The position numbers and the translations under genes were made by a program. This document shows positions 29,942-56,245 of a stretch of DNA of 64,000 nucleotides, piece by piece. Below the pieces are notes generated by a model. It did no database searches and was not told the origin of the DNA. It saw only the letters and a program-made list of their open reading frames with translations. Positions within the stretch are counted from its first letter, which is position 1; the number at the start of each line of letters is the position of its first letter. The stretch comes from Pseudobacteriovorax antillogorgiicola (GTDB lineage Bacteria; Bdellovibrionota_B; Oligoflexia; Oligoflexales; Oligoflexaceae), in contig NZ_FWZT01000001.1 in NCBI RefSeq assembly GCF_900177345.1, positions 1 through 64,000 on the forward strand. The letters are read 5' to 3'.

Positions 29942-30241
29942 CTAGGAGTCCTGGGTGGGCTTTTTATGACTGGGGCCTTTCTTTTTGAGTTTCGCAGACT
30001 CTTCAATCTTGTCTTTTTCATCAAACATTTCTGAAGCTTGATCAACGGTTTGCTTGTCTGGTTGGGACGCCGATCGATTTTCATCTTGAATGCGCTGATA
30101 AACCTCTTCTCTATGAACAACAGTACTGGGAGAAGCCTTTATTCCCAATCGAACTTGTTTGCCCTTGATTTGCATGACGATGATTTTTACATCATCACCT
30201 ATAGCGATCCCTTCGCCTACTTTTCGAGTTAAAACGAGCAC
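29942..30241 (-). CDS. csrA: Carbon storage regulator CsrA with extended C-terminus
   Basis: An RNA-binding dimer that represses translation by covering GGA motifs at ribosome sites. [20 protein letters not shown] and [22 protein letters not shown] are classic. The normal CsrA ends near residue 60; here about 38 further residues, Lys/Glu/Ser rich, follow. The start is GTG with GGGAGG eight bases upstream. Placement between flgL and fliW indicates the FliW-CsrA-flagellin circuit. Confidence 0.95.
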
Positions 30242-56006: not shown

Positions 56007-56035
56007 TTCGGAACTCAGTTTTTTAGTGCTAGAAT
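56007..56035 (+). promoter_or_regulatory. Extended -10 promoter of the structured RNA
   Basis: TAGAAT at 56030-56035 (5 of 6 to TATAAT) is preceded by TG one base upstream, an extended -10. TTCGGA, a weak -35, lies 17 bases upstream at 56007-56012. Predicted start near 56042, just before the first helices. Confidence 0.5.
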
Positions 56036-56041
56036 TTTTCT

Positions 56042-56245
56042 TAGGACCCTCTCTTGGCTGGACGAACCAGCATGTAAGGTCCAATAGGCTAGATGCCTAG
56101 GAAAGGAGGTGGTGCTGTAGTGTGTAACAATTGCACTAGTAGCATGGAGGTGATGGCTTCTTAGCCATTGTCTCCGGGTCTACGCAGCCGGCCCTACTTC
56201 CTAAAGGGTAGGCCGGTCCCCTTTAGAGCTGACCAGCTTTTAGAC
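56042..56245 (+). ncRNA. Structured RNA of unknown family with two perfect anti-anti-SD segments
   Basis: Consecutive helices can be drawn. GCTGG/CCAGC closes 56057-56071 and TAGGC/GCCTA closes 56085-56099. TGCT+TAGTG pairs with CACTA+AGCA over 56113-56144. A continuous 13-pair stem (three G-U pairs) spans 56146-56175 around loop TCTT. CCGGCCCTAC pairs with GTAGGCCGG, one bulge, at 56188-56216. AAAGGAGGTG (56102-56111), perfectly complementary to the 16S 3' end, lies unpaired between two helices; GGAGGTGAT (56146-56154) is buried in the 13-pair stem. The G-U pairs support transcription from the plus strand. A weak hairpin and T-runs near 56225-56255 may end it. No known family (tmRNA, 6S, SRP, RNase P) was recognised. 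Confidence 0.65.
56093..56164 (+). CDS. Possible 23-residue Cys-x-x-Cys peptide within the structured RNA
   Basis: ATG 56093 opens 23 codons ending at TAG. The peptide begins MPRKGGGAVVCNNCTSS and holds one C-x-x-C pair, like a minimal zinc or redox knuckle. The perfect ribosome-binding sequence at 56102-56111 lies inside the frame, ahead of an in-frame GTG at 56120. A shorter 14-residue product beginning at that GTG is therefore also possible. It might be a translated small protein, a leader peptide, or an accidental frame in a structured RNA. Confidence 0.35.
   Translation: MPRKGGGAVVCNNCTSSMEVMAS

Follow-up and report, generated by a model that had tools for sequence, protein, structure and literature searches.

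What is the RNA encoded at 56007–56245, and what are its two sequences complementary to the 3′ end of 16S rRNA for? The window is the whole stretch of DNA analysed, the first 64,000 nt of contig NZ_FWZT01000001.1 of Pseudobacteriovorax antillogorgiicola. The initial annotation had reported here a highly structured RNA behind an extended −10 promoter, with one exposed and one sequestered ribosome-binding sequence. On inspection of the sequence, every feature claimed is in place, base counts included. As read from sequence comparison, the anatomy of a stand-alone, structured, probably translated small RNA is well supported. A putative function, docking of the 30S subunit at the first site (SD1) and retention of the terminating ribosome at the stop codon by the second (SD2), is credible though short of probable.

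Features of the locus

The genome's own 16S gene (L083) ends in ...GGCTGGATCACCTCCTTTCT, also given as ...GGATCACCTCCTTTCT. The perfect 10-base complement of this tail at 56102–56111, AAAGGAGGTG, pairs base for base with CACCTCCTTT and is part of an 11-nt match (56101–56111). The second complement, GGAGGTGAT at 56146–56154, exactly matches ATCACCTCC and begins the 5′ arm of a stem of 13 pairs, three of them G–U, formed in the fold by 56146–56158 with 56163–56175. The extended −10 sequence is confirmed. The parts are as follows.

56027..56035, plus strand: extended −10 promoter-like box TGCTAGAAT, a consensus match; predicted transcript start at about 56042–56044.
56044..56082, plus strand: 5′ hairpin, GGACC 56044–56048 with GGTCC 56078–56082 (fold).
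56057..56061 with 56067..56071, plus strand: inner pairing of the 5′ hairpin, GCTGG with CCAGC (fold).
56085..56099, plus strand: hairpin H1, TAGGC 56085–56089 with GCCTA 56095–56099; conserved loop TANAN.
56101..56111, plus strand: SD1, GAAAGGAGGTG, complementary to the 16S tail over 11 nt without a mismatch; several relatives reach 13 nt.
56112..56145, plus strand: stem-loop S2, holding the predicted start codon; 56112–56124 with 56132–56138 and 56140–56145 (fold).
56120..56164, plus strand: small ORF, MCNNCTSSMEVMAS (14 aa); GTG start at 56120, TAG stop at 56162–56164.
56146..56154, plus strand: SD2, GGAGGTGAT; the stop codon comes 11 nt after the end of its GGAGG.
56146..56175, plus strand: SD2 hairpin of 13 pairs, 56146–56158 with 56163–56175; the stop codon straddles the loop and the 3′ arm.
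56188..56216, plus strand: hairpin in terminator position, CCGGCCCTAC...GTAGGCCGG (sequence).

Both transcript ends are predictions. A U-run is present at the terminator-position hairpin in other lineages, but not clearly in the window's family. A simple terminator scan reports no site at 56188..56216.

Distribution and novelty

A nucleotide search gives matches in 23 of 56 genomes. A covariance model built on an 86-nt core detects 29 copies in 28 of the 43 Oligoflexales genomes, in 13 genera, at 49–99 bits, with the order of helices fixed. There is one copy per genome, except for two in the window's own genome. No copy is detected by the model in the remaining 15 Oligoflexales genomes or in the phylum's 15 other genomes. 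Nearly all homologues of stated origin come from metagenome-assembled genomes.

A pattern scan of 84,980 species gives 20 loci, mostly labelled Oligoflexales, Oligoflexia, Oligoflexus or Pseudobacteriovorax; the rest are unplaced metagenome-assembled genomes and one labelled Bdellovibrio. Across these approximately 85,000 species none is found outside Oligoflexales by this pattern, which is strict, so that distant relatives would be missed. The same scan of viral contigs gives nothing, and a viral origin is rejected on this ground.

The family might, according to the initial annotation, already have been catalogued. It is not in Rfam 15: the window has no match for it at the gathering threshold, and at E up to 10 only chance-level matches fall in the stretch. 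Identity with tmRNA or 6S RNA is ruled out, as both families score above the cut-off elsewhere in the genome. No description of the RNA is found in literature searches. It is a new RNA family, restricted to Oligoflexales as far as searched, and adds to the known RNAs of a little-studied part of Bdellovibrionota a family that Rfam lacks.

The second copy in the window's own genome (L053/L024; G000:C18:72450-72532, minus strand, 77.6 bits) is diverged. It has an ATG start and the peptide MTSFDNSSMEVRTS, and is adjoined by unrelated genes.

Secondary structure

The predicted folding energy of the 224-nt strand is −87.8 kcal/mol; shuffled versions average −74.6 (z −2.8), and 2 of 200 of them reach as low a value. 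The minus strand is nearly as unusual (z −2.6); the fold of a single sequence is therefore weak evidence, and comparison is needed. Energies are from standard models at 37 °C. Values for 14 lineages refer to the 13 genera and the second copy of the window's genome.

Covariation is present in H1: compensatory changes occur at 4 of 5 pairs, all cells are paired, and none of 500 shuffles reaches the covariation score. The 5′ hairpin persists in relatives although its sequence differs (mean z −2.6, Stouffer −9.7). In S2 (helix 2) 95.5% of cells of the consensus pairs are paired, with one-sided changes only. The SD2 hairpin has a mean z of −3.4 (Stouffer −12.7, 14 lineages) and many pair types at variable positions. 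Whole transcripts have a mean z of −4.0 in the 14 lineages. With 29 copies, a covarying helix and a Stouffer z of −15 for whole transcripts, the predicted structure is beyond chance. A TGNTA-type extended −10 box, identified by consensus match only, precedes 27 of the 29 copies and in 26 lies shortly upstream of the 5′ hairpin.

SD1 was correctly described as exposed where the local fold is concerned (unpaired 0.99). When the full length is folded, the site is unpaired at 0.31 and paired to the 3′ part at 0.57, so that its exposure varies with the RNA's state. The window copy forms this pairing despite having no mimic of the 16S tail. Such a mimic, 8–13 nt identical to the tail and able to pair with SD1, lies in the terminator arm of f3g5, f7 and f8g10, reaching TCACCTCCTTTCT; a 16S-tail-like stretch is also present in the 3′ hairpin of one f8g16 copy. 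It is absent from f1, f9, f10 and the window's family, and is thus lineage-limited. Pairing of SD1 with the terminator is significant in f3g5, f7, most f8g10, f10g17 and one f1g3 copy, and not in others. In L043 the terminator arm has TCACCTCCTTTCT, which matches the 16S 3′ end over 13 nt, 33 nt past the stop of the small ORF; f7 and f8g10 have shorter versions.

A GCUAC/GCUGC motif is observed between the SD2 hairpin and the terminator in L025, L026, L031, L035 and L048–L052. It is complementary to GUAGC of S2; L050 and L051 are altered in the S2 arm, yet the pairing is kept. An AGUAGC/GCUAC helix competing with S2 is suggestive in f2, f7g22, most f8 and f1g2; the permutation P is 0.24 and the helix is not claimed.

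Small ORF

In each of the 29 copies a TAA or TAG follows the GG[AG]GGTN of SD2 at exactly 9 nt, and an in-frame ATG, GTG or TTG is present 6–12 nt past the GGAGG of SD1 with no intervening stop. The distance from SD1 to SD2 is 33–47 nt and takes every residue modulo 3. The frame that ends at the conserved stop is open with a start in 29/29, the other two in 1/29 and 2/29. When the segment from SD1 to the conserved stretch before SD2 is shuffled, an open frame with a start arises in 10–23% of trials per lineage. The product over the 14 lineages is 10^−12 with lineages treated as independent; they share history, so this value is descriptive only. The stop alternates between TAA and TAG, and by lineage falls in either the loop or the stem of a hairpin, which makes a codon-level constraint the simpler reading.

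By these patterns the RNA is very probably translated. A conserved short ORF, with start and stop in every copy, would place it among peptide-encoding small RNAs. The predicted peptides have 14–18 residues, with a variable first half and a C-terminal end near SS(T/A/M)EVx(V/A)(S/C/F). Some of the conserved residues lie on RNA-constrained stretches (S2 arm, SD2). Changes between close copies are in part synonymous and in part non-synonymous.

Two or three cysteines occur in many of the peptides (L027, L028, L029, L026, L048, L044, L052), not in all lineages. Their patterns are CNNC, CSNC, GCC, GCC, CWDC and CTTC.

Ribosome sites

The duplex of SD1 with the 16S tail is near-maximal, approximately −25 kcal/mol in all 14 lineages. 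The best upstream duplex of the 53 long ORFs of the window is weaker (−18.2 kcal/mol). The start codon lies in or beside S2 and is unpaired at 0.04 in the window, at 0.00–0.36 in 12 lineages, and at 0.51 and 0.59 in two. In full-length folds SD2 is mostly paired to downstream sequence. SD1 is often partly paired in the full-length folds of the copies, and docking would be weakened by this.

The initial annotation had considered a switch in which opening of the stem frees the second site. SD2 stands at a fixed distance before a stop without a conserved start behind it, so the opened stem creates no ordinary second initiation site. No ATG, GTG or TTG occupies a conserved place near the stop; 12 of the 29 copies lack such a codon within 20 nt, and in the others the frames begun there vary in place and length. 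The GGAGG of SD2 ends 11 nt ahead of the stop; when the stop codon occupies the A site of a ribosome, the P-site codon is therefore 8 nt past GGAGG. A distance of 8 nt from GGAGG to the P-site codon is an initiation-like spacing. Such spacing at the stop suggests that SD2 may pair with the 16S tail and hold the ribosome. The combination proposed for a ribosome-docking RNA, a near-maximal SD with a stop-proximal SD at fixed spacing, is found in the predicted sites.

The annotation had also offered a ribosome-binding regulatory RNA or an anti-SD sponge. The RNA is indeed structured and uncatalogued, with one strong, locally free site and a second sealed in a hairpin. Of the outcomes that the annotation had named as refuting, lack of covariation and a match to a known RNA family are contradicted by the changes in H1 and by the Rfam search. 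The conserved, probably translated small ORF between the two sites argues against a purely non-coding sponge or switch. 'Ribosome-binding regulatory RNA' is the best general description of this putative function.

Genomic context

The RNA follows orn (oligoribonuclease; PF00929) in many genomes. A functional tie to orn is not adopted: the relation is synteny only, some copies have no orn upstream, and the gene is also found in genomes that lack the RNA. A gene for an M14 peptidase is downstream in several lineages, on the same strand in f1g1, f2, f7g9 and most f8g10. In f1g2, f1g3, f3 and one f8g10 copy the gene that follows is encoded on the other strand; in f8g16, f9 and f10 it is unrelated. 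The promoter-like box, the covarying helices and the changing neighbours point to a stand-alone unit, not the leader of one gene.

Proposed mechanism

A free 30S subunit would dock on SD1. Initiation would be infrequent, owing to the mostly non-AUG, structured start codon. An initiating ribosome would melt S2 and then the SD2 hairpin. Through pairing of SD2 with the 16S tail, the RNA would retain the ribosome that terminates there or the 30S subunit that remains after recycling. In some lineages the 16S-tail mimic in the terminator arm may occupy SD1 when the ribosome is absent. The function would be ribosome occupancy and not the peptide: occupancy would titrate or report free ribosomes and determine how the RNA itself is folded.

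The proposal is favoured by an SD1 duplex that surpasses that of any long ORF of the window, by the number of copies and genomes, by a start codon that is mostly paired, by a frame kept in every copy despite the variable SD1–SD2 length, by the invariant distance from SD2 to TAA or TAG, by the strength of the SD2 hairpin with no conserved start after it, by the variable N-terminal half of the peptide, and by the downstream genes, which in several genera are different ones or lie on the other strand. Against it stand the partly conserved C-terminal residues, the limitation of the mimic to lineages other than the window's family, and the 15 genomes of the order without a detectable copy. In its full form, a dedicated RNA that captures the 30S subunit, parks the ribosome on SD2 after token translation of 14–18 codons and so senses or buffers free ribosomes, the proposal is doubtful. 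We know of no bacterial RNA dedicated to ribosome docking. Two parts of the anatomy are complementary to the 16S tail, and a mini-ORF conserved in frame lies between them. If parking is true, the RNA would be a natural device that measures or stores ribosomes. The effect on a terminating ribosome of an SD just before the stop codon is made testable.

Comparison with known systems

Anti-SD small RNAs of the CCUCCUCCC type are known (NfeR1). The feature shared with them is CCUCCUUUC in the 3′ hairpin of some Oligoflexales lineages; it is not universal, and the conserved elements of the Oligoflexales RNA are SD-like, not anti-SD. CsrA sponges of the CsrB/RsmZ type carry several GGA motifs in a small structured RNA. 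The Oligoflexales RNA shares several GGA motifs with these and differs in that they are few and not in loops, that its distribution does not match that of csrA, and that conservation spans the whole SD. SgrS/SgrT, SR1/SR1P and RNAIII are dual-function or peptide-encoding small RNAs. Small RNAs that encode peptides have been surveyed (PMC5521070). Like these, the Oligoflexales RNA would be an independent short transcript whose small ORF is under selection; unlike them, it has two 16S-complementary sites that bracket the ORF, an invariant SD-to-stop spacing, a variable peptide and no known target.

Leader-peptide attenuators and uORFs with an extended SD, such as the rbf uORF of S. aureus (PMC13009471), share the short ORF, its strong SD, the hairpins at both of its ends and the terminator-like hairpin of many lineages. 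They differ from the Oligoflexales RNA, which has no conserved downstream gene and is often followed by convergent genes. In coupled gene pairs an SD lies in the 3′ part of the upstream gene, where local structure is proposed to block de novo initiation (PMC6728339). Such termination–reinitiation sites resemble the Oligoflexales RNA in having an SD where an ORF ends, covered by a hairpin that the translating ribosome would unfold; a conserved second start codon is lacking in the Oligoflexales RNA. The merRNA and APsRNAs of Bdellovibrio are small RNAs of the same wider phylum, one of them a proposed sponge. They are reported without homologues outside Bdellovibrio, and merRNA is a c-di-GMP riboswitch RNA (PMC3627812).

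Alternative explanations

A dual-function small RNA that acts mainly by pairing with mRNAs in trans, its ORF, SDs and hairpins only setting stability or exposing a seed, is somewhat unlikely. It agrees with the stand-alone unit, the promoter-like box and the terminator of many lineages, and the 8–13 nt 16S-tail-like stretches of the 3′ hairpin in f3g5, f7, f8g10 and one f8g16 copy offer a candidate seed, e.g. CCUCCUUUC in the terminator arm, for pairing with the SDs of mRNAs. Besides the SDs, H1 and S2, however, no seed is conserved family-wide, and f1, f9 and f10 do not have the mimic. Conservation of all 29 frames with ATG, GTG or TTG starts would also be expected of the mRNA of a functional peptide of 14–18 residues whose structured leader merely tunes expression, and the C-terminal pattern and the synonymous changes among close copies are consistent with it. 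This reading is nevertheless unlikely: the N-terminal half is not conserved, the conserved residues fall on the RNA-constrained S2 arm and SD2, other changes between close pairs are non-synonymous, and the peptides inspected have no hydrophobic stretch like that of type I toxins. A cis-acting leader-peptide attenuator of the downstream gene is improbable. The same-strand M14 peptidase gene would suit it where present, as would pairing of SD1 with the terminator arm in f7 and f8g10; the opposite-strand or unrelated downstream genes of the other lineages do not, and with no conserved co-directional gene attenuation is disfavoured as the general function.

Sequestration of CsrA by conserved GGA motifs is very improbable, although each core has 3–6 GGA motifs, SD2 is in a CAYGGAGG context in many copies, and csrA is found in 49 of 58 genomes. 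SD2 reads GCGCGGAGG in many f7 and f8g10 copies. Families f5, f11 and f12 have csrA without the RNA, G008 has the RNA without detected csrA, and the frame, the stop spacing and the extended 16S complementarity are left unexplained. A CsrA sponge is rejected on the position of the SD2 GGA in a stem and not a loop, the small number of motifs and the loose co-occurrence with csrA. Service of SD2 to a second ORF after the stop is the least probable reading, to be given hardly any weight: the precedent of coupled gene pairs (PMC6728339) favours it, but reinitiation is rejected on the missing conserved second start near the stop.

The single csrA of the genome is at 30086–30238 of the window on the minus strand, approximately 26 kb from the RNA. 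The same spacing is observed in several relatives and is probably plain local synteny.
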